DNA from: Ianthella basta
Taxonomy: Eukaryota > Porifera > Demospongiae > Verongiida > Ianthellidae
DNA: 64,000 bases
NCBI GenBank assembly: GCA_964019415.1
Contig: OZ025869.1
Location: forward strand, 7,912,714-7,976,713
Direction of reading: 5' to 3'
Shown piece by piece: positions 20,781 through 61,039 of this stretch; position 1 is the first letter of the stretch, and each line of letters opens with the position of its first letter. The notes below the pieces were generated by a model, which had not been told where the DNA came from, made no database searches, and worked only from the letters and a program-made list of their open reading frames with translations. The position numbers and the translations under genes are program-made.

Positions 20781-23700
20781 CCGACTCAGTGGAGACGATA
20801 GACGTCCGCTGCAGAACCAAACGCTAGCTCGTTTCTTATAATTCCCCGCATGTGCCGTCACGGGATGTGGTCTTCACCTGAGCAGAACATACTTTGGGTC
20901 GCAGAGCGAAGTCCAGCGTTCGCAAAACAGACCCGATATCCGAAAACCCCTCCGATCCAGTCCTCGAGCACGTGGAATACTTTGCAGCTGTGCAGAATTT
21001 AGTGCATGCACGTGACGAATTATATTAGCTTGCATACATAGTGGATCGCTTGCGGCTCGATCATGAATATCATTATAGAGGACAGTGGCAACAAAACTTT
21101 TACAAAACATACAATTAAGATACAAGTGAACACACCAACACAATATACTAGTACTGTGTGTGTATAGTTACAATGTACTGTGAGTTCTGTACTGCTGGGG
21201 TCTAAGTTCACTGGAGACTGAACAGCTCCGTCTTGAGTTGCTGTGAGAAGGCCTTGTGTCCAGCATCTTCCACTGCAGACAACACAGTGCGCCAGGTTCT
21301 CCCCTTCTCTCCTGTGCCTGCTTCCTCAGCCAACCACTGCTCTAAGATGTTTGCACATGCTAGCTCACATCGGTTTGCTGTGGCCATTCTCACAACAGAG
21401 GCCTCCACACCCAGATGGATGGCAATCAGGCTCCAATCTCTGGCCACTTCAACATCACGGACAATGAACTGCTTCATGGCCTGTAAAGTGGGGGCGGAGT
21501 CCATGTTGAAGAGGGCGTGTCCATCTGTAGGTGGGGTGGGACCAGAGTAGGTGTTATGAACCACTCTCTTGTCAGCCGCCGTAGCTAAATTTAGCGTGAA
21601 GAGGGTGTGTCAATCCCTCCAAACACACATGCACACACAAGCACACATCCATACAATGTTGAGGTTCACTCCAGTCTAGCTAGCTAGACCCTTCCAAGGT
21701 GAGGTGCATAGGCAGTGGACACAGCAAATAGCCTCACACCACCCGGGTGGAGAGGGTCTAGCATGCTAGACTTGGTTAGTGGGGTCCATCAAAGACAGTA
21801 GGGACACACCTCCCACACTCGGTAAACTGTGAGGTGCACTCGTGTGTAGTTACATTGCGTGGAGCATACCTTGCTGTGTTGTAGTCAGTGCCTCCGTCTC
21901 TGTGGAGGGTCCCCTGTCAGCAGTGGTAGCTCCATTTTGGGAGTTGGAGGATGGCAGTACTGAGGGCAGGTCTGAAGAGAGTGGAAAGTTGGCACACGTG
22001 TGTATGAGAACGAAGCCATACAGTGTCAAGCTCTTGAGCTAGTCAACAGCAGACAAGACATGCTCAGTTGACCAGCTGACTGGGGGGACTGTACCTTTGA
22101 GGAGTTCCTCCTCCAGTGATGTGATGTGCTGTACTGCTATTTCAGCATCTTTCATCGCTCCAAGGAGCACTTCCCAGGTGGGGCTGGCCCCTTCGCCATC
22201 CCTCCACCTGTTCAAACCAGACTGCACAGCCTCTTCCAGATTACGAGGAAAGTTCCAATAGCATGTGGTAATGGCTTCAGGGGAAAGCCCCACACACTCC
22301 AGCAATGCCCGCCCCCTGTCACCTGCCTTCTGACTCACAAACCTTCTGAGCAGAAAGGCACATCTCTGGTGGCCTGGGGGGGGGGGGGGGGGGGGGCAAT
22401 TAAATAGATCATGCCAGTCCACTCATACTCTCAAACTATGCAATTGGCAATGAAAGTATAGCAAGACACATATGAAGCAAGGTGATACCTCTCTGCCAAC
22501 CTACCCCACTCCCACCCCACAAGGTACCCTCACAGTGAGGTAGCCCAATGTCCCCAGAGACCCATGCTGAGAATGGAGAGACTTACCCACAGAGTGCACT
22601 GTCTGTGTGTGGACAGATCTCCGTCCCCGATCACTTGAGGAGGTTGCTCCTGTAGGGTAGAGCAAGGACACAAAGGGGACACCCACAGCAGGCCATGATA
22701 TAATGTACACTCACACACAAGTACATCAAGTGGTCCCTCCCACACTCGGTACACTGTGAGGTGCACTTGTGTGTAGCGACATTGCATGGAGCATACCTTG
22801 CTGTGTTGTCGTCACTGCCTCCATCTCTGGGGAGGGTCCCTTGTCAGCAGTGGTAGCTCCACTTCGGGAGCTGGAGGATGGCAGTACTGAGGGCAGATCT
22901 GGAGAGAGTGGAGCTGCAGGTACAAGGGAGGAGGAAGCAAGTGTCCAACCTTTAGGCTAGTCAACACCACATCATACTAGTTGAATGGGTGGCCATTACA
23001 TGTATATGAGGGTACAATAAGGAGGTACACTGAAGAGATTGCTTCCATCAAACAGGGAAAGGAAACACACACTCACCACTCTGTGGCTCCCTCTTAAAGT
23101 CCATGTCTTGCACAACTGACAGAGAAGGAGACCAGCCTCCAAACAACTCAGTGAGACTCGTCTGGTTGGGAAGATGGCCAGCTGGCTTTCGGGATGGAAC
23201 ATGGTCGCCTCCATCACTGATGCAACGAATGATACTGGAAACAGGATATAAGGAATCAGGGGGAGGGGCTTTGGTGTTTTTCCACCTAGCAGGTGTGTAT
23301 GGGTGGACGATGTAGGATGTGGCCTTCAGCTTCGGTGACAGTTGGGTAGTTGTTTTGATGACATCTCGAACAATGGTTGACACACATTGGAGCAGTTTCT
23401 CTGGTCCTACCTTGCTGTGTCCGACAACCTGGACCACACTGCTGTCATTTATCTGGACCACTACCTCCACACCAGTGATGGACATCCAGGAAAGGCCATT
23501 TGTCCAGACACTGCAACAATGCTCTCTCACACTGGGTAACTCATGGGTGAACACATGATTGGCTGCAAGATGGAGGATGATGGATTGGAGGAGATGTGCT
23601 GAGATGAGGTGCTTCTCCTCTGTCCTCAGTTGCCAGCACACCCACTGGAGGTGGTGTGGGTCTGCATCTTTTGGTAAGAGCTCAGGAGGTTGGGCAGACA

Positions 23701-26660
23701 CCAGACCAGGGAAGTATAGCCATCCCTCTCCCTCAGTACCAGCAGTTAGCTTCACAAGATCTTCTCGTAGCATCCTTGTATCCACCTGGATGCAGAACTC
23801 AAGGCTGATAAGGACCTCTTGGATCATTGTCGGCTCCAACTTGGGAAACAGCTCAGCCAGCTGACTGCAGTGGATGAGACCAAACTGGTTGACCTTGTCC
23901 TGGGACCCACTGAACAGGGTGCCATACATGTTGTGGAGAACAGCTTGGAGGTCCAAGATTAGCCAACTTTGGGAGGGGTCCAGCTTGTTGGGGAGAAAGA
24001 GGGCGTGCCCAACTGCTGTTAGGTCACGACACACTTCCACAGCTGGAGGTAAGTTCCTGGAGAGCAGCTCAACATTCTTCAATAGCCATGACTGGAAGGT
24101 GTGGAGTGTGATGGCCGGAACAGAGAATGCTTTCTGCACTTGCACTAGGACCCACCGAAGGTTGTACGAGAGACCATCAGAGTTCAACTGGAGAGGTTGG
24201 ATCTCCTGCAAGAAGGTGCATATCTGATTGATACCCTCAGATTCAGGCTTGCGGCAGTCCAGGAGACAGGGACCCTGGATGTTGAAAGGTAACTCCTGCA
24301 CTGACTGAGTGCATCGTAGCAGCTTCTCGGCTGCTTCCTCTTTGGACTTTACTCGGTCAAGGAAACTGCCAACAAGGATCACTTGTGGAGTGGATGGGGC
24401 TGAAGTAAGAGCTAGAGGTTGCAGCCAGCGAGTGATTTGCTGTGAGATGATGTCTTCCTCGTCGGTTGTCTTTACCAGAAGTAACAGGGTCACTGACACT
24501 CCTGGCTTGCTCAGCATGGCCTCCAGGAAGGACTGATGAGGGCCGTGGTAATCAGCCTGACCGGCAAAGTCGTAGAACAATGTCTGTCCATACTTACGAC
24601 TGAAGAACTGGACTGCTTCAATTCCAGCTGTGCGTTGTCTGATGTCCTCCACTTGTGCAAACCTGTTGATCAATCTCTTGAAGATGCTTTTGCCCTCGGC
24701 TTGCAGAGCTGCTATCAGTGTACTCTTGCCGTGTTTAGCATTGCCAATTACTGCTACAATGCGCTTTGTAGAGAAAGACTGTGCCTGTCGAATAGTTTGT
24801 AAGAAATCACCTCGTGCAAGGCCTAAGGGAGATCTGGATTCTTTGTTCCTTGTTGTCATATCTGCTCCTGCCTCCACGAGTAGAACCCCACATTTAATAT
24901 GATTGTATTTAGCAGCATAATGCAGGGCTGTTGAGCCAGCAGCTAGCCTCCCATACCCCAACTCCCTGCTAGTAGTGACAACATTCACACTAGCACCTGC
25001 TCTAATCAGTTCACACACCATTTCATCACTACCCGTCCAAGCTGCCCCCATCAAAGGGGTCACTCCCCATTCATCTTGTACATTGGTGTTTGCACCAGCT
25101 GCACACAGTGTTTTCACAACACTGCAATGACCCCTCCAGCTGGCATAGTAAAGGGCAGTTTGTTGAAGATACTTGTCCTTTACATTCACACGAGCTCCTT
25201 TTCTAATGAGCTCCTCCACCATTTGGACATGACCCCCAATAGCTGCCTCTATTAAAGGTGTTCTGCCATACTCACCTCTGGTGTTCACATCACAGCCCTC
25301 TTTAATTAACCGCCTCACTTTGAACAAGTCACCCTTTTCACAAGCACTCCTAAGAGCCATCTCCAATTCTTTCTAGCAGAAGTACAAGTGAAGGTGTGAC
25401 CTACAGAAGACACAATGGACCACTTGTTGGATCAACAACTTCACACAGAGAGGCAAAATGCCTCACAAAATGTCTAACTACTAAACAATATGGTTCATTA
25501 CTACAGCTGCCTACAATTTACTGCTAATGACTCCAAATGACTCAACATGTGTTACAAGCCATCTTAACTTGCTCCATCTATACCAATAGGCTAAGGAAGG
25601 AGAGGCCTGAGGCCAATAGTAGCCCCTGCTAGATCCACCTTGAGTACAGCCCCTTCACATGCAGGCTACTAGCTACCATTCAAAGCTCCAGCTAGGGCAC
25701 GGGTTCACCCACCTACAGCACCACGTGTGTTGGATGCACTACGGCAATACAGTATAAGAGCACTCACCAGTTGGAGAGGTGTTGGGCTGAGGCGCTAGGG
25801 AGGGAGGAGTGAAGAGGTGTTGGCTGCTACTGTCGGCCGTCGCGTGAGGAAGTAGCGGAGAGTTGTAGCTGTTGGTAGTCGGCGGAGGAGGCGCGGCGGT
25901 AAGGAGGGAGGAGTGTGAAGGTGTTGAGCGGGACGGTGAACGGGGGAAACCAGACGTTGCTAATGGACGGAGTGTTGGAGGAGCGAATACGTCGAGGAGT
26001 CAGTTGGATGCGGGAGGCTAGTGGCGCGAGACTGAGCCGTAGGGGTGTGGGCTGGATGTGTTGGTCGCGGAGGAGGCGAGCCGTTAAGGAGGAAGGAGTG
26101 TTGTGGTGTTCAGCTGGACGGCGCTGCTGGTGACGGTGGAACGAACAGTGTGAATTTCGAGCGAGGCTGCTATCAACTGTTAACTGAGTGCTGAAGAGAC
26201 GCAGCGCTTCCTCTGTAGCTGGAGTGCGTACAGAAAGGTGTAAGTTGCGAGGCTGCTGTTAACTGTTAACCTGGTGTTGAAGGGGCGCAATGCTTCCTCT
26301 GTCGGAGGAGTGTGCACGGGAAGGTGTCAGTTGGCTGAGCTGGTACAAGAGAGACTGGACAGTCAGTGGTTGGGCGCTATTAAAAGGCGGTGGAGAGAGA
26401 GTGACCTGCATGAAAGATGGGGAAAGGTTTGTAGCTAAATGAGCAGTTGAAGCAGCTAGAAACTACGGGACTTAGCTAACTACTTGACAGCCATTAGCTA
26501 GCTAGTGAACTGTAGCTAGATTTGCACACTTCAACGCTTCCTAAACAGCAAACAAGCCACTCCGCACAAACCACTTGCAAAAGGACTTACCTCCACTACA
26601 CACCTGGCAGGCCCAGGGCTGCCCGGCCGGTAGAGAACAACTCAAACAAACTCGACTATA
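20780..26660. repeat. Segmental duplication, copy 1
   Basis: This block matches 41,405-47,000 in the same orientation over nearly its whole length, including introns and 5' flank. The start codons of the two genes are 20,474 bp apart. The main difference is around 22,095-22,650 (copy 1) versus 42,719-43,000 (copy 2), where a domain-encoding exon block differs. Confidence 0.9.
21208..25360 (-). CDS. Ankyrin-ROC-COR protein with two Death domains
   Basis: Exons are 25360-23077, 22913-22797, 22649-22587, 22373-22095, 21971-21870 and 21584-21208. All junctions are phase 1 and the total is 3,222 bp, or 1,073 residues. ATG 25360 is used because the longer frame begins with TTG. Residues 1-180 hold about five or six ankyrin repeats. 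A ROC GTPase follows, with P-loop GNAKHGKS (206-213), switch DFAGQ (264-268) and a weak G4 (VGSFLD). A COR-like region extends to about 745. Ser/Thr-rich linkers flank a first Death domain (about 822-914, RWRDGEGASPTWEVLL); the C-terminal Death domain (about 950-1073) has the classic GRTWRTVL core. This is the DAPK1 layout without the kinase. A GTP-regulated scaffold in apoptotic or immune signalling is inferred. Intron 3 ends in a pure run of about 22 C. Confidence 0.85.
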
Positions 26661-26850
26661 ACTCTATCTCTAGCACTGACTGTGACAACTGAACAACTCA
26701 AAGAAACTCCACTAAACTCCTGTATTCTTGGGCGTGTACCGCTGACTACTATAGCAACGAAAAACGCGCCACACCCATATGGCCATATCCGGCAACGCGC
26801 GAATGACGTCACCATCACCAGTGCACATGAATGTACAGCAGTGACTGCAG
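25361..26850 (-). promoter_or_regulatory. 5' flank and probable 5'UTR exons of ankyrin-ROC-COR gene 1
   Basis: An acceptor-like site (ctgctag) lies just before the ATG. Good donor sites on the minus strand at about 25,768 (ctg|gtgagt) and 26,590 (gag|gtaagt) are kept in copy 2, so non-coding leader exons are likely. Between 25,780 and 26,300 there are three or four imperfect repeats containing aaggagggaggagtg. A perfect CRE palindrome, tgacgtca, is at 26,804-26,811. Promoter function is inferred. Confidence 0.45.
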
Positions 26851-27857
26851 TGTCCTTCAGTGGTACACACAACAGTGTCACAGGTTGTAACTACTGGAGT
26901 TCATTCTGAGTGCTCTCCAGTGTGTGCTCAAACACCTCCATGCACCTTCTGCAGCAGAGACAAGTGGTCGTAGCTAGTCAGCCAACATCTGCATGAGGGT
27001 GGGCAGGACAGCCAACATCTGAGGGTGGGCAGGACAGGATGGGAGTAGCCTTGCCCACTAGACCGTCCTGTAAGTGCCCGCTAGCTATAGCCTACAGTAC
27101 TGTACTAGCAGGCCAGACTAGATGGAGTGTGTACATGTGTAGGATGAAATAGCTACTCTTGTGTTAGATGGAGGTCCCCTTAACTCTGAAGCTATGAAAA
27201 GTGACAGTCATGGGTTGTTACGAGATATTATATGCACGACAATTGATTCAGTGACAGCCACGTCCACATTAATGGACAAGCATGGGGACTTTCCCTGATG
27301 TTGCACTATAATTATCAAAAAGCAAAGTCTGTACATGTAAGCCATACATGTGCACAGTCATGTGGACCAAACATACTTTGGTGACTCTACACTTAGTGAC
27401 TGGTCCATGTCACTGTGACTGTCACCTGTATGGTTTAGGGAGTCCAACATACTTTGGTGCAATGTCATACGTAGAAGTCCCTCTTTAGTCTAGAACTCAG
27501 TACCAGACATTCCTGCATTATGGGCACTCCCTCCTCTTGGGGTTCACCTTCCAACATGGTCTGGCCCGCTAGACCCAACTCCTCATTATCGAGTGGTGGT
27601 GGAAGAGGAGATGTGAAGTTGGGTCTAGCGAGCCAGACTACTTTCAACATGGTCTCCTTTTTCATCTGTCTCCACAGCTAACAGACACAACACATTGAGG
27701 TACAATCTGAAGGCCTAAACATTGTAGAATATACCATTATTTCCAAAGAGTGCGCATTATAAACTGCTCAGTACAGTCTGAGGGCTTACACTATAAATTC
27801 AATTTTAAAAGAGTTTGAACTATACACCGTTCAGGATTTCACCAAAAGGGACACCTG
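26851..27857. other. Intergenic with hairpin, no gene
   Basis: Two 27-bp copies lie near 26,985-27,040 (agccaacatct…gggcagga). An inverted repeat has arms 27,560-27,580 and 27,617-27,637 (20 of 21 bases pair; core cgctagacccaact). The motif acatactttggtg occurs twice. No coding frame is seen. Confidence 0.6.
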
Positions 27858-27865
27858 TGTGTGTA

Positions 27866-27944
<79 letters not shown>
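27858..27944. repeat. (TG)n microsatellite
   Basis: A nearly pure TG tract with one TGTATATG interruption near its start. Similar tracts occur at 51,140-51,172 and 55,410-55,443 just upstream of the same G-rich minisatellite. Confidence 0.95.
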
Positions 27945-27946
<2 letters not shown>

Positions 27947-28079
27947 ACGTACAAAAAGACAGGTGAGAAAGAGATATTTCACTCCAACATTAACTAAGTC
28001 ACTAAGTCAGTGAGTGACTTGTACAGCATGCATGAAGAGGAGTACTGTAACACACACTACACTAACAGCAGCTGGAGAA

Positions 28080-28525
28080 AGGAGAGGGAGGGGCAGAGGG
28101 GGAGGGGTGGGAGGGGCAGAGGGGAAGGGGTGGGAGGGGCAGAGGAGGAGGGGTGGGAGGAGCAGAGGGGGAGGGGTGGGAGGGGCAGAGGGGGGAGGGA
28201 TGGGAGTGGCAGAGGGGGAGGGGTGGGAGGAGCCGGAGGGGCAGAGATGGAGGGATGAGAGGGGCAGAGGGGGGTGGGAGGGGCAGAGGAGGGGTGAGGT
28301 GGGAGGAGCCGGAGGGGCAGAGATGGAGAGATGAGAGGGGCAGAGGGGCAGAGGGGAGGGGTGGGAGGGGCAGGGGGGAGGGGTGGAAGGGACAGAGGGG
28401 GAGGAGCCGGAGGGGCAGAGATGGAGGGATGAGAGGGGCAGAGGGGGGGTGGGAGGAGCCGGAGGGGCAGAGATGGAGAGATGAGAGGGGCAGAGGGGGA
28501 GGGGTGGGAGGGGCAGAGGAGGAGG
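28080..28525. repeat. G-rich minisatellite (ggaggggcagaggg type)
   Basis: About 445 bp of imperfect units built on gggaggggcagagggggagg. The same array is about 140 bp at 51,300-51,436 and about 535 bp at 55,565-56,098, so copy number varies between duplicates. Four-G runs recur every 5-10 bases on the plus strand. Confidence 0.95.
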
Positions 28526-28654
28526 GAGGTGTAACACACACTACACTAACTACTTGGCACCAGCTAATGACCAACTACCCAGTGTACACTCAGTGTACAT
28601 CTCCCTCCTCCCCCCTCCCACACACATCAACACACAAGGGGACCACACACTCAC

Positions 28655-29240: not shown

Positions 29241-29354
29241 TTGGTTGGGGTAGGGATGGACACACACAGGCGGACACACAATGCAGACACAAATGGAATG
29301 TCACATACCTATCTATTGTACAGTGAAGGAAACACACACAATTATACACCACAC

Positions 29355-29735
29355 ACAGGACATGAGGTAAACACTACACTCACATACACACACCGTGTGG
29401 AGTGACACTGGACCAGACCACACCACACACAGGACATGAGGTAAACACTACACTCACATACACACACCGTGTGGAGTGACACTGGACCAGACCACACCAC
29501 ACCACACACAGGACATGAGGTAAACACTACACTCACATACACACACCGTGTGGAGTGACACTGGACCAGACCACACCACACACAGGACATGAGGTAAACA
29601 CTACACTCACACACACACACCGTGTGGAGTGACACTGGACCAGACCACACTACACACAGGACATGAGGTAAACACTACACTCACATACACACACCGTGTG
29701 GAGTGACACTGGACCAGACCACACCACACACAGTA
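29355..29735. repeat. 74-bp tandem repeat, about 5 copies
   Basis: The unit contains acaggacatgaggtaaacac, tacactcacatacac and gtgtggagtgacactggacc. The same array has about 19 copies at 56,929-58,335. Because 74 is not a multiple of three, all frames recur every three units, which creates spurious open frames. Confidence 0.95.
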
Positions 29736-30188
29736 CACAAGCACACAGGACAAAAGTACATACTTTGAGTTTAAAAACTCACACTTTTAAGTTGTTGAAT
29801 GACCTTGTTCATACGATGGCTGGTTGTCATACGCTTCTGATATGCTTACACATTTCCACCTCTAAGTTGTTGAATGACCTTGTAACTGCAAGTCGGCTGT
29901 GTGGTTTCTGTATTGACATGCTCCATTTGTGGTTGTACCACTGGCAGCTCCAAAGGTATGCAAAAGCTACCACTCACTGCAGAAACACAACAAGAATACA
30001 CCCCACATATAACAGGTGCCTATATTGATTACAACATAGGAAGTAGTTTGTAGAGTCTCAATGGTATTGTCTACATCAAGCTTAAGGCACAGGTGCGACA
30101 TGTCCTAGGGGAACAAGGCAACTTCTCAGGGTGCCATTATAATTTATAGTGTACAATGCATGCACAGTGAGCAAATGTAACGTGCATA

Positions 30189-30364
30189 CAGTGGCCCTGC
30201 TAAACGATCACCTCTATAAAACGACCACCTTAGAAATAAGACCGCTTTGGTTTAGTCCCATATCCATGTACACATGCATTGTTTGATTGTAAAAGTAAGA
30301 CCACTTTGAAAATAAGACCACTTCTCATGGCCCAGATGGTGGTCTTATTTCTGAGGTTCCACTG
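30189..30364. mobile_element. 176-bp MITE with TA target site
   Basis: The ends are CAGTGGCCC… and …GGTTCCACTG, flanked by TA on both sides as in Tc1/mariner/pogo insertions. The inside repeats aaataagaccac in both orientations. The copy at 58,791-58,966 has the same length. Confidence 0.65.
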
Positions 30365-31323
30365 TATATGGGAATACAATACAGTGTACACACCCTTATG
30401 TAAGATACATTGCTTCCTGCATTGTGCACTACACATGTGGTCCTCAGCCTCATGTAACATACTCTGGAGGTCTGTTTCTACTGCACTAACACATGTTCCA
30501 AACCACTGTAGCTCACATGGGTGGTGTCTAATTTTCTACTATGTAGCAACTAGCGCAATTACTCCTTTTGCTCAGGTGATGTTGATCGAACCTCTGCAAC
30601 TGCCGCTGGTGATCTATTTCTACCAGTGACTACTGCATTCACACCACCAGCACATGTGCTGTACTGTCGTAATGTAACTTGTACTGTGTGTGGTGGTGGT
30701 GGTGGTGGTGGTGGTGGTGGTGGGGGCACAGTGTAGGCATATTATACAATGCACAAGGTGGTCCAAGGTAAGGAAACATATACACTCCTTCAGTTGGCAA
30801 CAAAAGGCCAACAAACGTGGTATGAACTTGGGAAAGCGTTGAGATGGTGAAGGCAGGGATGAAATTTGGTTAAAGGTGATTTCTTGCATCTTTACAATTG
30901 CCACAATATGTATCTAAGGGATACGGCAGAGATGGTAGTTTCTTTGTTCAGGAGCTCATCCATCAGTTTTCTATACCAGTCAACATGAAACATGGCACAC
31001 ATACTGTGGGTGGTCTAAGGTGGTTGGTGACTCTGCCACTGGCCTCCTTTAGACAAAACGTACCGACACAATGAACTTGTGCCCATGGAGATTACGGAGC
31101 TAGTCTATGGAAACGTGTCAATCATCACACGTAGATGATTTTGATTTGTCACACACTCAAATTGCAGGTAACAGGCTGGGAACCCACCCTAAGGGCAAAT
31201 ATTCGTCAAGTAACTGTACAAAGACATTCATTACAATTATAACAGTTAGAGTACATGTGTACAGCTACCTATTGCAATGGTGAGACCTCCCATCACTGGT
31301 GTATACAGGACACACAGAGAATT

Positions 31324-31798
31324 ATAGAAAGGGGAGTAAATTTTGAGCGTACAAAACAGAACTTGATCTGTTTTGTACAACTGAAGAAAGCCCTTTTTGG
31401 GGCTGAAACGTCTTGAAGTTAAGAAACAGTGTGCCACGTCAGGGGTGGATCCGGCCAACCCTTGAGGGAGGGGGCTGAGTGCTTTTTATTAGCTATTGTG
31501 CAATCACATTATGACGTACATAATTAAAATGGCTGCCGGCGACCAGAACTAAAGAGAACTTAATTCAGATCCCTGTGCAGTCACACCAGACTCTATGTAG
31601 CTTAAACCAGCTCCTATAAGGTTGTTTAGATGATTTAGGCCATTAAATTCTGTTGGATGTACACTTTAGTGAAATTTGCTAAGAAAAGTGTTTCAGATCT
31701 GAGCCAAGAAGGGAGGCTCAAGCCCCCTAAGCCCCCCCCCCCCCAGATCCGTCCTTGCACATATTATATACGCTCACAATTTACTCCCCTTTTCTATA
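31324..31798. mobile_element. About 475-bp MITE with 28-bp terminal inverted repeats
   Basis: The left end tatagaaaggggagtaaatt is the inverted repeat of the right end aatttactccccttttctat, with further pairing inward (ttgagcgta). It has no coding capacity. It contains a 12-bp perfect hairpin followed by a hammerhead-like motif at 31,381-31,412. The duplicated copy is at 59,926-60,405. Confidence 0.65.
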
Positions 31799-32384
31799 TA
31801 TGGATGTGGTATGAACCTCAACTTTAACACACATGCTGTATTGCCCTTCCTACTGCAGTGGTCAATGTCATTGCCCACCACTCTGTTCACATGCTGTAGT
31901 CAATAGCAGGCCAGGTCAGTAGGAAGACAATAGAGAATGCTCTATAAATACCAGTGGCTGGTACAAACTATACAAGATGGGGTTAGTGTATTTCACAGCA
32001 CACGAGACACACCAACACACACTGCATGGAAAGAGTGTGTTTGGGGGACACACACACACACCGTGGGAAGGGATAACACCCGTTGTGTGTAATAGAGTGG
32101 GTGTTTATATTCATTACAGCATGGGGAATAGCAAACACAGCACTTAATGCCCACGCACCAGTCTGTGTTTGGGAAAGACACACAACATGTTAAATATACA
32201 GAAAGTACCAAACACACACAGCACTAGGAGGGGGCGGGGCCAACACTGTGAGGAGTGCAGGGGGACCATTTGAACAGTGAACTGGACTCACATGAGCACT
32301 AACAGGTGAACATGGGAAATGGTAGAGGAGAGGAGAGGGAGGGGGAAGGGCAAGGGAGACACAGGAAAAAAGTACGCATTTCCC

Positions 32385-34942: not shown

Positions 34943-35056
34943 TTAAATGCCGACCAATCGGTGTCTGCGAAGATTTAGACCACTCAGCACTCGGGCGCTT
35001 CGCGCCCTCAAGCTTCGTGCTCTAAATCCCGCAGACACCTCTTGGGCGGCATTTAA
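34943..35056. repeat. Foldback element with TTAA ends
   Basis: The arms ttaaatgccg…ggtgtctgcg…atttaga and the mirrored tctaaat…cgcagacacc…cggcatttaa pair over about 35 bases, and the centre contains gggcgcttcgcgccc. Both ends read TTAA. Possibly a tiny non-autonomous element or a structured RNA. Confidence 0.6.
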
Positions 35057-35059
35057 CTA

Positions 35060-35480: not shown

Positions 35481-35552
35481 AACCAAGGCGAGTATAATTC
35501 AAATCCCATTAAAAACACTGTATGGGAAATTGAATATTTTTTCCTGTGTAAG

Positions 35553-36315: not shown

Positions 36316-36552
36316 GGGAAATTTATATTGTGAACATTTCTGACTCCCATATTGACAGTGATCTACAAAATTTTTGGGTCACAAAAATTTACAATACACA
36401 GTAGATTAACATTGTGTTTACACTGGCACCCGGTTCCGGGCCAGCCCGGCACGGATTCCGGAACCGTGCCAGGAAGCGGTGCTGGCGTTTACACTGCTGA
36501 TACGATACGAGTTACTATGCGTATCGCGGCGTTTTGTTTCTGTTCGATAAAG

Positions 36553-37931
36553 ATGGCGTCGAACCGTGTTGTAGCCCTTTGTCAGCTCCTGCTATCATCC
36601 AGAGGCACCCCGTCTTCCTCTAATTCGTCACAGAGCTCGTTGAGGAGGAGAGGCTGTCGGGCACGAAGAAGACTCACGTTTCAAAGGCAACTACAACTGC
36701 GAGAGAAGGCTGTTCTGCTAAGAGCGCTTACCACCGCCATTGCCGTGGGCTTCGTACCCAGACCAAGAACGGTGTGGACATTGCAGAGGTGAGCTCGTGG
36801 GAAATTGTATGCAGTGCGCATCTGCATGGTAGCAAGTACTATTTAGGCAACCTGAAGTATGGTGCACTGAAAACAAGTAATAGCTACCTCTCATTGCTAC
36901 AGGTCGGCTCACTGGTGGGAGTATGTCGTTTTACGCACATTCACACAAGAAGATTGGATTGAAAATTTTAGAGTTAGCCGAGAAACGTTTCTTTATTTGT
37001 GTGATCAGCTAAAACCTGTTATTTGCCGCAAAGACACTCATCTACGCAGGGCTATTTGTGTTCAACATCGGGTAGCAATAACTTTATGGTGTCTAGCAAC
37101 ATGCGGGGAATATCGTACCATTGGGCACTTGTTTGGTGTGGCAAGGAGCACAGTGTGTGTCATTGTGCATGATACATGTGCAGCAATTGTCCAGGTTCTG
37201 CAGTCACGATACATTAAATTTCCAACTGGTGAAAGTTTGCCAAACGTGGTTGACGGATTTAAGTTGAAATGGCAGATGATTCAATGTGCAGGTGCTATTG
37301 ATGGATGTCACATCCCTGTTAAACCTCCAGCCCTAAACCACACGGACTATTACAATCGTAAGGGTTGGTATTCTATTGTCCTGCAAGCTGTAGTGGACCA
37401 TGGCTATCTATTTACAGATATTATGGTTGGTTGGCCTGGAAGTGTGCATGATGCACGAGTACTAGCGAACTCTCAGCTGTACCACAAGGCCATGAATAAA
37501 GAAATACTGAATGACTGTAGCCAGAATGTCTAGGAAAGGATATTCTACCATTTCTTGTTGGTGACTCTGCGTATCCACTGAGTACATGGCTAATGAAGCT
37601 CTTTCCACACAATTCAGCAATGACTAACAACCAAAAAACCTTCAACTATCAGCTTTCAAGAGCACGTATTGTAGTAGAGAACGCTTTCGGTCAATTGAAA
37701 GCTAGATGGAGGAGGCTACTCAGACAGAACAACATGGATATTGCACGTGTTCCTCGGGTTGTGACTGCATGTTGTATTCTACACAATATGTGTGAAGTCC
37801 ACGGTGATGCCTTTGTTGACTCCTGGCTAGAGGGTGCCAGGTTGGAACAACCAGGCTGTGCAGCTACACCAGTTATTACATCTGCGCACTCTAGAGATAT
37901 TAGAGACACCCTGGTGCAATACTTCATGTAG
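36553..37931 (+). pseudogene. Harbinger transposase, frameshifted
   Basis: Exon 1 is 36553-36788, the intron 36789-36902 (gt-ag, phase 2), and exon 2 reads to 37931 across one shift. The frame stops at 37,531 after …CSQN and resumes one base off in LPFLLVGDSAYPL. Domain order is a basic N-terminus, a helix-turn-helix (TIGHLFGVARSTVCVIVHD), then a DDE_Tnp_4 core: Asp in GAIDGCHI, GWPGSVHDARV, the Asp of GDSAYPL and the Glu of RIVVENAFGQLKARW. The catalytic residues all survive. It would cut and paste the element using the Myb-like partner (family knowledge; HARBI1/NAIF1 in vertebrates). Confidence 0.9.
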
Positions 37932-37954
37932 TTATCTAGAATGTTATATATATA

Positions 37955-38062
37955 GTTACACTCCATTATGTTACTCTGGTACAACAATATCATACACTCT
38001 GTTATGTTACTCTGGTACAACAATATCATACACTCTGTTATGTTACTCTGGTATAACTGTCA
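37955..38062. repeat. 36-bp tandem repeat, three copies
   Basis: The unit contains atgttactctggtacaacaa and tcatacactctgt. It lies just 3' of the transposase stop. Confidence 0.9.
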
Positions 38063-38185
38063 TTATTATTGTTATTTCATGACATCGCTTGTATGTATTG
38101 GTCTGTGTAATCGTGTAGTAACCTCAGTACATCAAAGCGGGTCATATGCTCACCATATATATATATATATGATTATATATATATA

Positions 38186-38673
38186 TCTTATTATAATAAA
38201 CGGAACGCACATTTCGTTGTTCGGGATAATCTCCTTCAATTCTGGACGAAACGTCACGAAACTTGGTAGGATTACGAAGAGGGGGACTGTGAGTAACCTC
38301 GCTGAGCCGGAATTTGGTTTAAGGTCGTTCCGTCCGAGTTCTTGCCACTTTTACGGTCGCCGCCATATCTAAGAGATAGGGAAAAAGATCGTGTTTGGTT
38401 GTGCACAAACTCCTCCTTCAATTTTTCACCAATCTTCGCCAAACTTGGAAGAGTATATCACGACAATACGGGGGGTGACCTAAGGTGGTTAGTGCCTTCG
38501 CCACTGGACTCCTTTAAACGAAATGGATTAGCATAAGTAAATTCTGTACGTATGGAGTTTTACGGAACGAGTCTACGGAATACTCCCACTTAAATGGACG
38601 GTTCTGATTGGTTAAACGCTCAAATTTCAAACGATATGATGGGAACCCACCCAAAGGGCAGGCATTCGGCTAG
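38186..38673. mobile_element. Helitron-like non-autonomous insertion
   Basis: The 488-bp segment begins TC (tcttattataataaacgg) and ends CTAG, with A before and T after it, the A|T insertion pattern of Helitrons. A weak hairpin (ccaccc-aaa-gggcagg) lies about 15 bases before the end. The 3' half resembles sequence at 31,005-31,215 and 59,605-59,815. It sits inside the Harbinger element. Confidence 0.45.
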
Positions 38674-38736
38674 TATACATAATGTATTTTGAGTGCAAGT
38701 AACTACATAAATGCTTACAGTCTACTTCAACTGAGC

Positions 38737-39576
38737 TCACTGAGCTTCATCAGTGGGCCACTCATACATGCTTCCAGTTCCGGGTCCACTAGTTACAGAT
38801 CCCCTAGTGTAGTAGTTGGCAGGTGGTGGGGTATGGAAAACTGACTGTTGAGATAGCAACTCTAGTATTTTCAACTGAAACTCTCGCTCTTCCCTACGTA
38901 GACGATCCTCTCTGTCTCTAGCTTCCTTCCTTTGTCTCTCTTCCATCTCTAACATCTTCTCATCCAGCTGCATCCTTTTCTCTTCTAGGGCAATAAAGCA
39001 GGCATCACTCTCCTTCTGCATGTCTGATATCTTCTTCATCACCGAGTCCATTGCTTTTTCCATCATTTCTTCTCTTGCAGGTCGTTTGCGCTTTTTCTTT
39101 ATTATCTTTGGCTTCACGTCCTTAGCGTCTTGGTTCACATCCTGTTCATCATCATTGACGTTGACATCAATGTGTGTTGAAGAGGCTCCCTCTTCTTCAT
39201 CAGAGATGACCATTGAGCTTTCTGTAACAGAGCTATCCTCAGATGTAGTCGTGGAGGACGTGTCAATGACAACAGCTGGTCTTGTAGCAGGCCTGTGACG
39301 TAAAATCTCGTCCACTTTTTCAAAAATTTTTTGTCTTCCTGGTACTACCGGTTTTGCTGTTGTTGTCCTTAACTTTTTTGTACTCAGCTTTCAATTTCTT
39401 TATCTTCTCCCTACACGGTACTGCCTCTCTCTTGTACCCTGCTGCTGCCATTTCGCGGGAAAGCTTCTCATATATATACCAAGATTGCGCTTGCAACCCT
39501 GCAACTGTCTCTGTATATCATCGTCTCCCCATACCTCGAGCAGTTTTGTCGTCTCGTCGTCTGTCCACGTAGCCAT
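38737..39576 (-). pseudogene. Harbinger Myb/SANT-like accessory protein, two frameshifts
   Basis: The ATG is at 39576. The frame begins WTDDETTKLLEVW, a Myb/SANT-like first helix. It shifts in a (TA)n run near 39,478 into EKLSREMAAAGYKREAV…CREKIKKLKAEYKKVKD, and shifts again in an A/T homopolymer near 39,330 into EKVDEILRHRPATRP. An acidic linker, a nuclear-signal-like IIKKKRKRP and a long coiled coil then run to the stop at 38737. In Harbinger elements this protein binds the ends and brings the transposase to the nucleus (family knowledge). Confidence 0.85.
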
Positions 39577-39984
39577 GTAGCTTTGAATTCGCGCGAAGAC
39601 GGCGCTCGTTCGTACGCATGCGCACTCTTCTCGAGTGCACGGTTCCAGCGCGGTTTCGTTTACACTGGCAGGACAGCCCGGGCCGAAGCGAGCCAGCACG
39701 GTTCGGCACGGCTCGGTTCTGTTTAAACTACACTTTTTTATTGTGCCATTCCGTGCCAAACCGGGCTGGCCCAGAACCGGATGCCAGTGTAAACATGGTG
39801 TAAGGGAATATGTAATTTTAAGGAAGTGATAGTTCTTTATGAAACAAGTACAAGTAAACACAAGGAGCTCTAGGGAGAAACACAGACTAAATTGTTAGGT
39901 CCAATTCTAACCATCACCACATGAATCGATGTAGGCATCCCCTAAAAACATAGGCAATGGTACCAGTACCTCTCAGTAAATATC

Positions 39985-40070
39985 ACACTCTCTGGTCCCC
40001 ATACCCAAATCTCCACTCCACTGGTCCCCACACCCAAATCTCCACCCCACTGGTCCCCACACTCAAATCT
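39985..40070. repeat. About 26-bp tandem repeat
   Basis: Roughly three units of ctggtccccacacccaaatc plus a short tail, immediately 3' of the MLF exon. Confidence 0.8.
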
Positions 40071-40077
40071 CCCTTAC

Positions 40078-40237
40078 CTTCATCTAACTTGACAAAGTCC
40101 TGCCTCTTGACCCTCTCTCCTGAGAGCAAGTTGTGGCTTCACTCAATTGTGTAGGACCTCTCACTGAGGTGATGTCCGACAGCCATCTTCTTCACACCTG
40201 ACTCACTGTGGTACAGCCTCTTCCTTGTCTCCTTCAC
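40078..40237 (-). pseudogene. Myeloid leukaemia factor (MLF) exon with stop codon
   Basis: A 160-bp exon with good splice sites (tgtgcag| and gaag|gtaagg) reads VKETRKRLYHSESGVKKMAV followed by GHHLSERSYTIE. It continues as SHNLLSGERVKRQDFVKLDE after an in-frame TGA at 40,139-40,141. The GVKKMAxGHH…ER…I pattern is the conserved core of MLF-family proteins. Neighbouring MLF exons were not recognised. Either a relic or a single sequencing error in a real gene; the lack of other exons favours a relic. Confidence 0.7.
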
Positions 40238-41404
40238 CTGCACACAGTGTGAGGGGAGTCTGGTGGTAGGACACAACACACTGTACATTACTAACATACC
40301 AACTGGGATGTGTACACATTGGTAACAGACATGCATGCAATCACATGTCATATTAATGGACATAAATAAGGTTAACACAACCGGAAGGACTGGGGCAGGC
40401 TGGGCAAAAGGGGAACCCCCTGGAATGTACACACCACACTCAGTAATCAATACAGGTGATGACAGTAATTAAGGCGGGGGTGGAGGGCTGGCCGGGCACC
40501 AGCCTAGTAAGGGGGTGCAGTGTGTGGTGACCACAGAAAGGAGTGTTGAAGGACTGACACACACACATATATATATATACAGGTTGCCTGGACCAGACTA
40601 CCACGTGTCTACAGTTACGGGTGTACCTCAGCCAGTACAACCAGCAAAGGGTGCAGCTGACCCTTGGAGAGTGGCTTTGCGCAAGACCACCCTCCACTGG
40701 GGATTACAACACCTTTAAGGTGACAGGAGAGTGACCCTAGCTCACCTCATGTCACACCACATACCAGATGGACACAGTTACAGTGGGCTAGGGGTATCTT
40801 GGCCACGACTGCACAACACACAACACACCTACATGAGGCTAGCAGAGTTCTGATTGGTCAGTGGTTCAGAGGCATGTCATTGCCACAGGTCAATTGACCA
40901 ACGGACCAATCAGAACTCTCATTGACACTCTGGCATGTGTGCATTGGGAATTGTGCAATCGTGGACAACACGCCCCAAACCACTGGAAATTGCACACACA
41001 CACCCAGTGTCTATGATTACAGCACAGCTGCTCCAAACTACACAGCATGGAGTGGACATGGGGAGAGGAGACATTACAGTGCCAGAGGAACTAGCACTGA
41101 CCACCACCTCAAGGAAAAGGAGACACACACCTCTTCACTAACTCTCAAATGCTATATATCTCACTACAGGTAGGATTTGACATTACAACAAAGCTAGCTA
41201 CACATTACAATAAACGCCTCCTTGCCCTCCACATCCTAGTTACTCTCCTCTATGTATTACACATCAAGACTTGAAGGGGGCGCTAATACTTGGTGAGAAA
41301 ACTGGTGCATTCCGCCCACAACTCACTCTCCCGCCCGCTCGAGGTCTACAGCCCTCCAGAGCGCGTCCATCAGAGACGGTCAAGTGGTCCGGGAAGACTA
41401 TGAA
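40238..41404. other. Intergenic with palindrome, no gene assigned
   Basis: An inverted repeat with 16-bp perfect arms (agagttctgattggtc) spans 40,844-40,919. A (TA)n tract lies at 40,567-40,580. Nothing else is recognised. Confidence 0.5.
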
Positions 41405-44400
41405 CGACTGGGGACGACTCAGTGAAGGAGGGAGACGTCCGCTGCAGAGCCAAACGCTAGCTCGTTCCTTATAATTCCTCGCACGATGTGCCGTCACGGG
41501 ATGTGGTCTTCACCTGAGCAGAACATACTTTGGGCGCAGAGTGAAGTCCAGCGTTCGGAAAACAGATCCATTCCGAAAACTCCTCCAATCCAGTCCTCGA
41601 GCACGTGAAATACTTTGCAGCTGTGCAGTATTTAGTGCATGCACGTGACGAATTATATTAGCTCAACTTGCATGGCGGCTCGATCATGAATATCATTATA
41701 GAGGACAGTGGCAACAAAACTTTTACAAAACATACAATTAAGATACAAGTGAACACACCAACACAATATACTAGTACTGTGTGTGTATAGTTACAATGTA
41801 CTGTGAGTTCTGTACTGCTGGGGTCTAAGTTTACTGGAGACTGAACAGCTCTGTCTTGAGTTGCTGTGAGAAGGCCTTGTGTCCAGCATCTTCTACTGCA
41901 GACAACACAGTGCGCCAAGTTCTCCCCTTCTCTCCTGTGCCTGCTTCCTCAGCCAACCACTGCTCTAAGATGTTTGCACATGCTAGCTCACATCGGTTTG
42001 CTGTAGCCATTCTCACAACAGAGGCCTCCACACCCAGATGGATGGCTATCAGGCTCCAATCTCTGGCCACTTCAACATCACGGACAATGAACTGCTTCAT
42101 GGCCTGTAAAGTGGGGGCAGAGTCCATGTTGAAGAGGGCGTGTTCATCTGTAGATGGGATGGGACCAGAGTAGGTGTTATGAACCACTCTCTTGTCTGCT
42201 GCTGTAGCCAAATTTAGTGTAAAGAGCTTGCGTCAATCCCTCCAAACACACATGCAAACACAAGCACACACCCATACAATGTGAGGTGCACTCCAGTCTA
42301 GCTAGCTAGACCCTTCCGCTAAGGTGCTTAGTGAACACAGCAAACAGCCTCACACCAGTCAAGTCCTCGAGGTGGGGAGGGTCTAGCATGCTAGACTTGG
42401 TTAGTGGGCTCCAGAAAAAAGGGACACACCTCCCACACTTGCTACACTGTGAGGTGCACTCGTGTGTAGTGACACTGCATGGAGCATACCTTGCCATGTA
42501 GTAGTCAGTGCCTTTAGGGAGGGTCCCTTGTCAGCAGTGGTAGCTCCACTTTCAGAGCTGGAGGATGACGGTACTGAGGGCAGGTCTGAAGAAAGTGGAA
42601 TTGTAATGTAAAAGGGGGTATGGAACAGTGTTTGGCTAACTAAGTCAGCACACACACCAAACACAATGACATCTACATACACCCTCCCCCCACACACACA
42701 TGCTCAAACATTACCCACCTGTCTCCAGTCTCCTCTTCATAGATTCACCCAACGCTTTCATTTTAGGGTTGCCCTTAACTGCAGTGATGATGTCACAGAC
42801 AGTCTCAAAGGCCTCTTCAGTGCACTTCTCCTTCAATATCAAATGAAGAAACTGATTCTGTTGTGTTGGGTTAGTGTTTGCTGCGATTGTCCTCTGGTCA
42901 CCTCTATCAATGATATTGTTGTGTAGAAGTTCCAGGACAACAGCATTAGCATCCATTTCCTCAATGAACTGGTCCCGAAAGAGATCAAGTACTTGTACAG
43001 CTTCATGGAAAGGGAAGACACATGGTACACAAACCTGATGACATGTAAGGGCAGCTAAAAGGGGAATTCCCCATTTCCCAATTAGCAATAGCACACAGTC
43101 TGAATGTCCCTAGCTAACTGAGCCACACACTAAACCTCCTCTGTGCACTAAGGGGTCACCACATGACACTTGGGGTTAGTGGATTGCATGAGACTCCATC
43201 AGAGACAGTAGGGACACACCTCCCACACTCGGTACACTGTGAGGTGCACGTGTGTGTAGTAACACTGCATGGAGCATACCTTGCTGTGTTGTCGTCACTG
43301 CCTCCATCTCTGGGGAGGGTCCCTTGTCAGCAGTGGTAGCTCCATTTTGGGAGCTGGAGGATGACGGTAGTGAGGGCAGGTCTGAAGAGAGTGGAGCTGC
43401 AGGTACAAGGGAGGAGGAAGCAAGTGTCCAACCTTTAGACTAGTCAACACCACATCATACTAGTTGAATGGGTGGCCATTACATGTATATGAGGATACAA
43501 TAAGGAGGTACACTGAAGGAATGGCTTCCATCAAACAGGGAGAGGAAACACACACTCACCACTCTGTGGCTCCCTCTTAAAGTCCATGTCTTGTACAACT
43601 GACAGAGAAGGAGACCAGCCTCCAAACAACTCAGTGAGACTCGTCTGGTTGGGAAGACGGCCAACATGTTGTCTGGATAGAACATGGTCGTCTCCGTCAC
43701 TGATGCAATGGATAACACCCGAAACAGGATACAGCCAGTCAAGAGGAGGGGCTTTGGTGTCCTCCAACATAGTGGGTGTGTACGGGTGGACAATGTAGGA
43801 TGTGGCCTTTAGCTTCGGTGACAGCTGGGTAGTTGTCATGACGACGTCTCGGACAATGATTGATAAGTATTGGTACAGTTTCTCTGGTCCTGTCTTGCTG
43901 CGTCCGACAACCTGGACCATGCTGCTGTCGCTTATCTGGACCGCTATGTCCACACCTTTGGTGGACCTCCAGGAAAGGCCATTCACCCAAACACTGCAGC
44001 GTTCTTTCACACTGGGTAACTTGTGGGTGAACACATGATTGGCTGCAAGACGGAGGATGATGGATTGGAGGAGATGGGCAGAGATGAAGTGCTTCTCCTC
44101 CGTCCTCAGTTGCCAGCACACCCACTGGAAGTTCTGCGGCCCTGGATCCTTTCGGAAGAGCTCACAAGGCTTGGCTGACACCAGGGCAGGGAAGTATAGA
44201 CATCTCTCTCCATCAGTACCGGCAGTTAACTCCACAAGGTCATCTTCTAGCATCCTTGCATTTACCTGAATGCAGAACTCGAGGTTGATAAGGACCTCTT
44301 GGATCATTGCTGGATCCAAATTGGGAAACAGCTCAGCCACCTCATGGCAGTGAAGGAGACCAAACTGGTTGACCTTGCCCTTGGACCCACTGAACAGGGT

Positions 44401-47000
44401 GCCATACACGTTGTGGAGAACAGCTTGGAGGTCCAAGATTAGCCAACTTTGGGATGAGTCCTGCTTGTTGGGGAGAAAGAGTGCATGACCAACTGCTGTT
44501 AGGTCACGGCACACCTCCTCAGGTGAAGGCAAATGCCAAAGGAGCGCTTTCGCATTTTCCTCTACCCAAGACTGGAAAGTTTGGAATTTGATGGCCGGAA
44601 CACAGAACGCTTTCTTCAATTGTGCTAGGACCCAGTTTAGGTTGTATGAGAGCGTGCCGAGGTTTAACTGTAGCCGGTGTATCTTTACAAAGAAGATACA
44701 AATCTGATTGATTCCCTCAGATTCAGGCTTGCGACAGTCCAGGAGACAGGGACCCTGGATGTTGAAAGGCAACTCCTGCACTGACTGAGTGCATCGTAGC
44801 AGCTTCTCGGCTGCTTCCTCTTTGGACTTTACTCGGTCAAGGAAACTGCCAACAAGGATCACTTGTGGAGTGGATGGGGCTGAAGTAAGAGCTAGAGGTT
44901 GCAGCCAGCGAGTGATTTGCTGTGAGATGATGTCTTCCTCGTCGGTTGTCTTTACCAGAAGTAACAGGGTCACTGACACTCCTGGCTTGCTCAGCATGGC
45001 CTCCAAGAAGGACTGATGAGGGCCGTGGTAATCAGCCTGACCGGCAAAGTCGTAGAACAATGTCTGTCCATACTTACGACTGGAGAACTGGACTGCTTCA
45101 ATTCCAGCTGTGCGTTGTCTGATGTCCTGCACATTAGTAAACCTGTTGATGAACTTCTTCCAACGGCCTTTGTCCTCAACTTGCAGAGCTGCTATCAATG
45201 TACTCTTGCCGTGTTCAGCATTGCCAATTACTGCTACAATGCGCTTGGTAGAGAAACACTGTGCCTGTCGAATAGCTTGTAGGAAGTCACCTGATCCAAG
45301 GTCCAGGGGAGATTTGGAGTCCTTGTTCCTGACTGTCATATCTGCTCCTGCCTCCACAAGGAGAACCCCGCATTTAATATGATTGTGTTTAGCAGCATAA
45401 TGCAGGGCTGTTGAGCCAGCAGCTGGTCCCCCATACCACCCACTGCTAGTGACAACATTCACATTAGCACCTGCTCTAATCAGTTCACACACTGTTTCAT
45501 CACTACCCCTCACAGCTGCCCCCATCAAAGGGGTCTCTCCCCATTGATCTTGTACATTGGTGTCTGCACCAGCTGCACACAGTGTTTTCACATCACTGCA
45601 ATGACCCATCCAGCTGGCACAGTCAAGGGCAGTTCGTTGATACTTGTCCTTTACATTCACACGAGCTCCTTCTCTAATGAGCTCCTCCACCACTTGGTTG
45701 TGACCCCCAATAGCTGCCTCTATTAAAGGTGTTGTGCCATACTCACCACCTCTGGTGTTCACATCATGTCCCTCTTTAATTAACTGCCTCACTCTGAACA
45801 AGTCACCCGCATAACAAGCACTCCTAAGAGCCATCTCCAATTCTCTCTAGCAGAAGTACAAGTGAAGGTGTGGCCTACAGAAGACACAATGGACCACTTG
45901 TTGGATCAACAACTTCACACACAGAGAGACAAAATGCCTCACGAAATGTCTGACTACTAAACAATATGGTTCATTACTACAGCTGCCTACAATTTACTGC
46001 TAATGACTCCAAATGACTCAACATGTGCTACAAGCCATCTTAACTTGCTCCATCTATACCAATAGGCTAAGGAAGGAGGGGCCTGAGGCCAATAGTAGCC
46101 CCTGCTAGATCCACCTTGAGTACAGCCCCTTCACATGCAGGCTACTAGCTACCATTCAAAGCTCCAGCTAGGGCACAGGTTCACCCACCTACAGCACCAC
46201 GTGTGTTAGATGCACTACTGCAATACAGTATAAGAGCACTCACCAGTTGAAGAGGTGTTGGGCTGAGGCGCTAGGGAGGGAGGAGTGAAGAGGTGTTGGC
46301 TGCTACTGTCGGCCGTCGCGTGAGGAAGTAGCGGAGAGTTGCAGCTGTTGGTAGTCGGTGGAGGAGGCGAGGCGGTAAGGAGGTAGGTGTGTGGAGGTGT
46401 TGGACAGGACGGTGAACGGGTAGAACAGACGTTGCTAATGGACGGGCTGTTGGTGGAGCGAATACGTCAAGGAGTCAGTTGGATGCGGAGGGTTACTGGC
46501 GCGAGACCGGGCGTAGGGAGGGGTGGGTTGGATGCGTTGGTCGCGGAGGAGGCGAGACGTTAGGGAGGGAGGAGTGTTGAGGTGTTTGACTGGACGGCGC
46601 TGCTGATGACGGTGGAACGAACAGCACAAACTTCGAGCGAGGCTGCTGTCAACTGTTAACTGGGCGTTGAAGAGAAGACTGGGCAGTCAGTGGTTGGGCG
46701 CTATTAAAAGGCGGTGGAGAGAGAGTGACCTGCATGAAAGATGGGGAAAGATTTGTAGCTAAATGAGCAGTTGAAGCAGCTAGAAACTACGGGACTTAGC
46801 TAACTACTTGACAGTCATTAGCTAGCTAGTGAACTGTAGTTAGATTTGCACACTTGAACGCTTCCTATACAGCAAACAAGCCACTCCACACAAACCACTT
46901 GCAATAAGACTTACCGCTTGTTCTTCCTCTAATCCGCCAGGCAGGCCCAGGGCTGCCTGGCCGGTAGAGAACGACTCAAACAAACTCTACCAAAACTCTA
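41405..47000. repeat. Segmental duplication, copy 2
   Basis: Matches 20,780-26,660. Exon 1 differs by short in-frame indels (2,275 versus 2,284 bp) and scattered substitutions concentrated in the ankyrin region and the late COR region. The 5' flank is shorter, having lost one of the internal repeats. Confidence 0.9.
41831..45834 (-). CDS. Ankyrin-ROC-COR protein with CARD and Death domain
   Basis: Exons are 45834-43560, 43396-43280, 43000-42719, 42585-42490 and 42201-41831. All junctions are phase 1 and the total is 3,141 bp, or 1,046 residues. Ankyrin, ROC (P-loop GNAEHGKS, switch DFAGQ) and COR parts are close to the paralogue at 21.2-25.4 kb; the middle of ROC-COR is almost identical. The 282-bp third exon encodes a CARD-like six-helix segment (VQVLDLFRDQFIEEMD…LLHNNIIDRGDQ…EEAFETVCDIITAV), not the Death domain found at this position in the paralogue. 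A Ser-rich linker exon and the C-terminal Death domain follow. The AG acceptor used by the paralogue's last exon is GG here, but a new AG six bases downstream keeps frame. Likely a CARD/Death adaptor in immune or apoptotic signalling (inference). Confidence 0.85.
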
Positions 47001-60960: not shown

Positions 60961-61039
60961 CAAGGGAGAGGGTGCTCAGATGGTTGGATGTGCAGCACAC
61001 AGAGAAAGGTGCACTGTGTAGTCCTCCCCTTCCCCTCAC

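Follow-up and report, generated by a model that had tools for sequence, protein, structure and literature searches.

Can a receptor be re-wired to new death-fold pathways by the exchange of exons between genes and, if so, what keeps the reading frame intact at the joins? This long-standing question, here made testable in one species, is raised by a stretch of 64,000 nucleotides of the demosponge Ianthella basta (assembly GCA_964019415.1, contig OZ025869.1, positions 7,912,714 to 7,976,713 of the forward strand), hereafter the window, in which two paralogous genes, copy 1 and copy 2, join ankyrin repeats and a ROC-like GTPase to different death-fold exons. An earlier note, made from the letters of the window alone, had read the pair as a Death-domain versus CARD exon swap and as a case of live domain shuffling. 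By comparison of sequences, domain shuffling in the family to which both genes belong is established and looks recent; also established are the predicted exon structure with its phases, the predicted folds, the existence of chimeras, the loss of linkage between body and module and the purifying selection acting on the modules. The explanation that we consider probable as a whole is a tandem family whose cassettes, spaced by a repeated linker exon (L), would be exchanged among bodies by non-allelic recombination.

Gene models of the two copies were built on GT-AG sites, the exon joins being predictions from sequence. On the minus strand, copy 1 (1073 aa) consists of the body, a first linker exon (L1), a 63-bp exon, a 279-bp Death exon, a second linker exon (L2) and a terminal Death exon, and copy 2 (1046 aa) of the body, L1, a 282-bp CARD exon, L2 and a terminal Death exon. 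At one and the same site, as the earlier note had claimed, copy 1 thus holds the 63-bp and Death exons and copy 2 the CARD exon; moreover, all exon junctions are phase 1 in both models, again as claimed. The features, in coordinates of the window, are the following.

23077..25360, minus strand: copy 1 body exon, with ankyrin repeats, ROC-like GTPase and COR-like region (COR unconfirmed); gene model, Pfam Ank 1.6e-32, Roc 20.3 bits (cut-off 27).
22797..22913, minus strand: copy 1 L1 linker exon, 117 bp, phase 1-1, within the 177-bp repeat 22736-22912; repeat comparison and gene model.
22587..22649, minus strand: copy 1 63-bp exon, phase 1-1; gene model, nucleotide-level matches in other family genes.
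22095..22373, minus strand: copy 1 variable module, Death exon of class DD1, 279 bp, phase 1-1; gene model, profiles and predicted fold.
21870..21971, minus strand: copy 1 L2 linker exon, within the repeat 21809-21985; repeat comparison and gene model.
21208..21584, minus strand: copy 1 terminal Death exon, class TDD; gene model, Pfam Death 12.6 bits, under the cut-off of 22.6.
43560..45834, minus strand: copy 2 body exon, with ankyrin repeats, ROC-like GTPase and COR-like region (COR unconfirmed); gene model and Pfam.
43280..43396, minus strand: copy 2 L1 linker exon, within the repeat 43219-43395; repeat comparison and gene model.
42719..43000, minus strand: copy 2 variable module, CARD exon, 282 bp, phase 1-1; gene model, profiles and predicted fold.
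42490..42585, minus strand: copy 2 L2 linker exon, within the repeat 42429-42599; repeat comparison and gene model.
41831..42201, minus strand: copy 2 terminal Death exon, class TDD, 97% identical to that of copy 1; gene model and tblastn.
20777..26677: duplicated block with copy 1, about 90% identical to 41410-47011 outside the variable module.
41410..47011: duplicated block with copy 2.

In both copies the variable exon is flanked by direct repeats of about 177 bp, each of which holds a Ser/Pro/Thr-rich linker exon. A hidden second module was sought in either copy by tblastn over the whole window and none was found: the CARD occurs in copy 2 only and the middle Death in copy 1 only, the next-best CARD match (E 0.013) falling outside both gene models, so that the proposed difference stands.

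As to the nature of the modules, the hallmark of a CARD is a six-helix death fold in which helix 1 is broken in two. In structure prediction, the copy 2 module takes a six-helix death fold that matches solved CARDs (Apaf-1), in agreement with the earlier assignment of the exon at 42.7-43.0 kb, and the copy 1 module is likewise predicted to take a death fold matching solved Death domains (FADD). With Pfam profiles, the class of the copy 2 module scores 15.8 bits for CARD, under the gathering score of 23.9, with 7 of 35 family members matching at E <=0.1, and DD1 scores 16.0 bits for Death, under the gathering score of 22.6, with 15 of 19 members matching at E <=0.1 (best 5.5e-4). A profile of the CARD family, searched against the PDB, gave 10 matches at E <=10, the top six of them all NLRP1 chains (best E 0.0019). 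In the bodies, ankyrin repeats are clear by Pfam and Roc reaches 20-22 bits against a cut-off of 27; the GTPase carries the P-loop GNAEHGKS and the motif DFAGQ. The region that follows looks by eye like true COR sequences, and its hhalign score against five COR loci, 19.0, lies within the range of 30 shuffles (mean 16.8, maximum 25.5). Pfam COR-A was found at 24 places of the genome (17 above cut-off), none of them at the listed family loci, and neither a profile of the COR-like region nor the ROC-COR part of copy 2 alone matched any PDB entry. Because COR is not confirmed and Roc lies below the Pfam cut-off, the family is not filed as ROCO, though it may well work like one. A kinase appeared neither in the gene models nor in the Pfam scan of body open reading frames (ORFs), a scan of those frames only, so that unannotated upstream exons could hold one; NACHT and LRR were both absent from the Pfam matches of body ORFs up to E 10.

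The bodies of the two copies share 80.4% of their protein and 89% of their DNA sequence, and the earlier description of the genes as nearly identical through ROC-COR is therefore too strong. Near-identity is confined to a patch of about 300 bp in the GTPase (24300-24600 in copy 1), 99-100% identical between flanks at 75-87%, a pattern which suggests a gene-conversion tract. The terminal Death exon is common to both copies. Among the genes fetched, the nearest to copy 1 are L010 and L011 (98.6% identical over 3.2 kb, about 151 and 253 kb off), which carry the same Death module, and the nearest to copy 2 is L034 (97.9% identical, about 265 kb off), which carries a CARD. As judged from these alignments, copy 1 and copy 2 are not mutual closest relatives within that set.

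Both belong to a large family. The genome searched amounts to 209 Mb in 96 contigs, and all counts of family matches are lower bounds: at least 71 matches over 100 bits for the terminal Death exon (best 150 scored of 706 candidates), at least 150 matches of 668 candidates for the CARD exon, and for the L exon at least 41 in one search (best 40 scored of 198 candidates) and at least 40 in another (best 40 of 201). In public sequence, at least 1848 body relatives were found at E <=1e-10 among 7998 candidates scored. Family genes are present on contigs C2, C16, C4, C11 and C23. In particular, the interval 7.93-8.30 Mb of C2 contains at least 17 family genes on the same strand, two of which are copy 1 and copy 2, with their modules mixed in the order DD1, CARD, CARDb, DDc, CARD+DDc, DD1, CARD+DDc, DDb, CARD, DDc, DD1, CARDb, CARD, DDc, DDc, CARDb, DDb. 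This order was compiled by hand and covers every place listed there by the L, CARD and terminal Death searches, the body of L015 lying outside the stretch read; on C16, C11, C4 and C23 a selected subset of matches was read, some of them picked for their modules.

Across 39 genes and some extra loci, two CARD, three Death and two terminal Death classes can be told apart, together with SH3 and ZU5 exons (Pfam SH3_2 3.4e-11, SH3_9 3.5e-10, ZU5 3.6e-5); further paralogues with other modules at this site, for which the earlier note had proposed to look, do exist, with CARDb, DDb, DDc, SH3 and ZU5. Phase-1 AG and GT sites are kept in all 40 full-length death-fold module exons of the 39 genes (partial matches excluded) and in 5 of 5 distinct SH3b exons. 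Some genes carry two death-fold modules, namely CARD+DDc in L042 and L057 (in L057 with the CARD divided over two frames) and CARD+CARDb in L059, and SH3 exons follow L or CARD in L032, L035, L038, L045 and L055. At C16:6950900-6961881 (L071, L014, L018, L072, L026) the exons read body-DDc-L-SH3b-SH3a-L-SH3b-ZU5-l-L-CARDb-L-SH3a-terminal Death, where l is a partial L, the body match spans residues 150-774 of 774 and the chain as one transcript is putative. In the DDc genes L042, L052, L053, L057 and L058 the DNA read holds a short L piece and a mere fragment of the terminal Death exon, so that their C-termini may differ. By their ratios of nonsynonymous to synonymous substitution (CARD 0.22, CARDb 0.28, Death 0.43, terminal Death 0.36, COR-like end 0.36) the modules are under purifying selection; stop codons are absent from the module exons counted.

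That modules have moved between bodies emerges from the comparison of the two parts. The body tree rests on the last 600 nt of the body in 37 of the 39 genes. Within it, a clade of nine genes (support 100/99), at most 3.4% apart at the COR-like end, comprises five arrangements: DD1, DDb, DDc, CARDb and CARD+DDc. Among the 41 gene pairs less than 4% apart at this end, 32 differ in the class of their first module and 18 pair Death with CARD, fractions which are not unbiased rates because the genes outside C2 are a chosen part of the matches; copy 1, with its Death exon, and L035, with a CARD, diverge by just 0.9% there. No correlation is seen between body distance and module distance (Mantel r -0.10, p 0.97, n=37), and the same holds when CARD genes (r 0.03, p 0.38, n=20) or CARDb genes (r 0.10, p 0.39, n=6) are taken by themselves. 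Approximately unbiased (AU) tests reject single body clades for DD1 (p 1e-147), DDb (2e-44), DDc with CARD+DDc (2e-27) and CARDb (3e-7), the CARD class standing outside the test. The phase-symmetric exons and the discordant body and module trees that characterize an exon-shuffled multigene family are both found here.

Single genes make the same movement visible. In the chimera L013, a body resembling that of copy 1 (97.6% through L1) is joined to an L040-type tail (92.5% over 1207 bp), the bodies of L013 and L040 being 86.7% identical; informative sites split 190:24 in body and L1 vs 7:101 in the tail (Fisher p 8.7e-51). L033 likewise joins a copy-1-type body to an L052-type tail (184:25 vs 5:70, Fisher p 1.3e-38), and a third triplet (copy 1, L022, L035) gives the body half only (37:14). 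Copy 2, with a CARD, and L040, with DDb, are 94.1% identical to the end of L1, fail to align in the module and are 89% identical from L2 onward, a difference which, on this alignment, is an internal cassette swap. The claim of live domain shuffling is thus supported for the family, by the distance comparison, the 32 discordant pairs and the two chimeras, and has to be given up in the form of two sister genes differing by one exon.

How, then, could modules be exchanged? We propose that the tandem family encodes intracellular scaffold proteins in which ankyrin repeats, ROC-like GTPase and COR-like region would lie in one exon, followed by a variable tail that usually ends in the terminal Death. 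The tail would be an array of small phase-1 exons, of two CARD and three Death classes, SH3 and ZU5, spaced by the L repeats of about 177 bp. Non-allelic recombination, in the form of unequal crossing-over and gene conversion within the tandem array and between chromosomes, would shift tails and single cassettes among bodies, and could also expand or delete cassettes. New joins would keep the frame because module exons are phase 1-1 and L provides a flexible linker, and the phase-1 linker exon is accordingly a concrete candidate for what keeps the joins in frame. The L repeats may be the main substrate of exchange. When eight genes with bodies close to that of copy 1 are set against it, strong homology breaks off where L1 ends in three of them, some 20 bp beyond the body exon in three others and is unbroken in two; furthermore, L distances form one pool (L1-L1 8.6%, L2-L2 8.5%, L1-L2 8.8%), the two L copies within one gene being slightly closer (8.4%, p 0.015). 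Since homology stops at these points and the L copies pool, the repeats could offer homology for unequal exchange; these figures hint at recombination through L and at homogenisation of L.

A number of observations, besides the choice of genes behind the pair fractions, weigh against this account. Inside the L1 of the chimeras a switch point was sought and none was clear, the sites forming a patchwork (10:8, 8:8). L1 distance shows no clear relation to body (r 0.16, p 0.06) or to module (r 0.10, p 0.10). For 42 of 63 L copies the most similar one sits at the equivalent position, and in no case is it the partner L of that gene; the intronic portion of L, 7.0% divergent vs 10-11% in other introns, is just slightly more alike. 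Six genes (L013, L033, L053, L058, L042, L057) share a breakpoint that lies outside L, inside the intron upstream of the CARD. In addition, module labels cluster on the body tree (14 changes vs a shuffled mean of 18.9 and minimum of 16, with 0 of 500 shuffles as low) and body distance correlates weakly with terminal Death distance (r 0.19, p 0.01); linkage between body and module is, by these measures, not wholly lost. Finally, 3 of 37 body ends contain stop codons, and some family genes may therefore be dead.

A possibility is that gene conversion runs through the whole family as a background process in which the L repeats have no special role, module change being merely visible where the exons are non-homologous. 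The 99-100% GTPase patch amid its diverged flanks would be conversion within the body too, and both the patchwork in the L1 of the chimeras and the several breakpoints outside L fit such a process. Set against it, body divergence is structured (13 of 34 inner branches starred) with module distance uncorrelated to it, and L-bordered cassettes recur across chromosomes. We regard this background process as a serious contender, its probability being considerable and yet short of even.

Differential loss is a different proposal, in which an ancestor carried both CARD and Death cassettes and each copy deleted one, with no movement between genes. The earlier note had raised such an ancestor, and part of the idea holds: dual-module genes exist, as described above for L042, L057 and L059, and in the six genes with the shared breakpoint 194 bp of CARD-upstream intron, cut at the same point, are followed by about 124 bp of other sequence, a partial L and then the Death module. 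This scar reads as the trace of a former CARD and suggests that cassettes have also been lost. Loss alone, however, cannot yield a gene in which body and tail group with different relatives; the scar is found in two well-separated body groups (L058 vs L013, L033 and L053), and in copy 1 no remnant of the CARD intron lies between L1 and the Death exon. As the sole cause, differential loss is rejected by the chimeras and the AU tests, though losses also occurred, and it is improbable as an account of the two copies. An artefact of assembly or annotation, with copies of a repetitive array collapsed or mis-joined, is barely credible: the array is indeed repetitive, the body-matched locus L019 runs into N after L and the window has one run of N (13801-14000), yet neither gene model contains N and the mixing of modules and bodies recurs at many separate C2 and C16 loci with frames mostly open and splice sites conserved.

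Other features were observed in passing. Between copy 1 and copy 2, at 36871-39390, lie ORFs which by eye resemble a Harbinger-type DDE transposase and a Myb/SANT-like partner. A second block of the window duplication (29346-32359 and 57953-60969) is 98% identical and starts with a tandem repeat of about 74 bp, and at 16979-18936 about 14 tandem repeats of 138 bp lie within a 984-aa minus-strand open frame. Elsewhere in the genome, an ORF of 844 aa at L061 (C7:328000-334500) starts with a P-loop-like sequence, matches nothing in Pfam at E <=0.1 and precedes a CARD and a Death-like match, and at L063 (C1:12449000-12454200) the order is ankyrin, Death, CARD; relatives of the copy 2 CARD thus adjoin other kinds of body at these two loci.

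What varies between the genes of the family is the signalling end of the protein, on a shared scaffold. CARD and Death domains serve to nucleate complexes with domains of their own kind; therefore, a body in which a CARD, a further Death or an SH3 is added to the retained terminal Death could form a bridge to other partners. The protein may be a switch that assembles death-fold complexes, and a cassette swap would re-wire one common scaffold to other partners downstream; immunity, or cell death tied to self and non-self, is the probable, if putative, setting. The earlier wording, by which the swap changes the death-fold partner, holds in that the added interface changes and is too simple in that both copies retain the same terminal Death. 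Going further, the L-bounded cassettes could be an active generator, such that alleles or individuals differ in CARD, Death, SH3 and ZU5 behind near-identical sensor bodies. This extension is speculative and we think it rather unlikely; if true, the hypervariability of such a system, be it immune or allorecognition, would lie in effector wiring and not in ligand recognition.

A literature search, covering mainly openly available papers, brought up no animal ANK-ROC-COR family in which death-fold exons are shuffled; several known systems share part of its features. ROCO proteins of the DAPK1 type have the architecture kinase-ankyrin-ROC-COR-Death, and the sponge family resembles them in the order of ankyrin, ROC-like GTPase and C-terminal Death, and differs in that its models have no kinase, COR is unconfirmed, the family is large and tandem, and variable CARD, Death, SH3 or ZU5 exons precede the terminal Death. 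Proteins of the MACC1/SH3BP4 type are built as ZU5-SH3-Death; SH3, ZU5 and Death exons likewise occur together in the C16 locus, but there they adjoin an ANK-GTPase body and are spaced by L exons.

Four expansions also bear comparison. In the ROCO genes of brown algae, LRR exons (72 bp, phase 2) are shuffled between copies of proposed immune receptors (PMC11378527); both are multigene ROC-COR families with phase-matched exons, yet the algal exons are LRRs on the putative sensor side, whereas here signalling modules move, in phase 1, with a linker-exon repeat between them. In zebrafish, hundreds of NLR-B30.2 genes, with one domain per exon, show conversion and shuffling of B30.2 and peptide-repeat exons (PMC4852459), alike in family size and in combining exon shuffling with gene conversion, and unlike in that here death-fold modules move between near-identical bodies. 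In marine invertebrates, the sponge Amphimedon included, a large TRADD-N/Death-like expansion is described in which proteins carry between one and three Death-like domains in many different architectures (PMC8195603); the scale and the variety of Death-like architectures are similar, but TRADD-N is not among the Pfam matches listed here, and the present family has an ANK-GTPase body and repeat-spaced cassettes. In the demosponge Dysidea avara, NLRs carry CARD or DEATH on one common body type and their categories form distinct within-species clusters (PMC12909245), whereas in Ianthella module type is largely decoupled from body. The kind of process is thus known. In the algal and zebrafish families, as described in these two reports, it is mainly the recognition side that varies; what is new here is that the signalling end is moved, on near-identical bodies and with a repeated linker exon.

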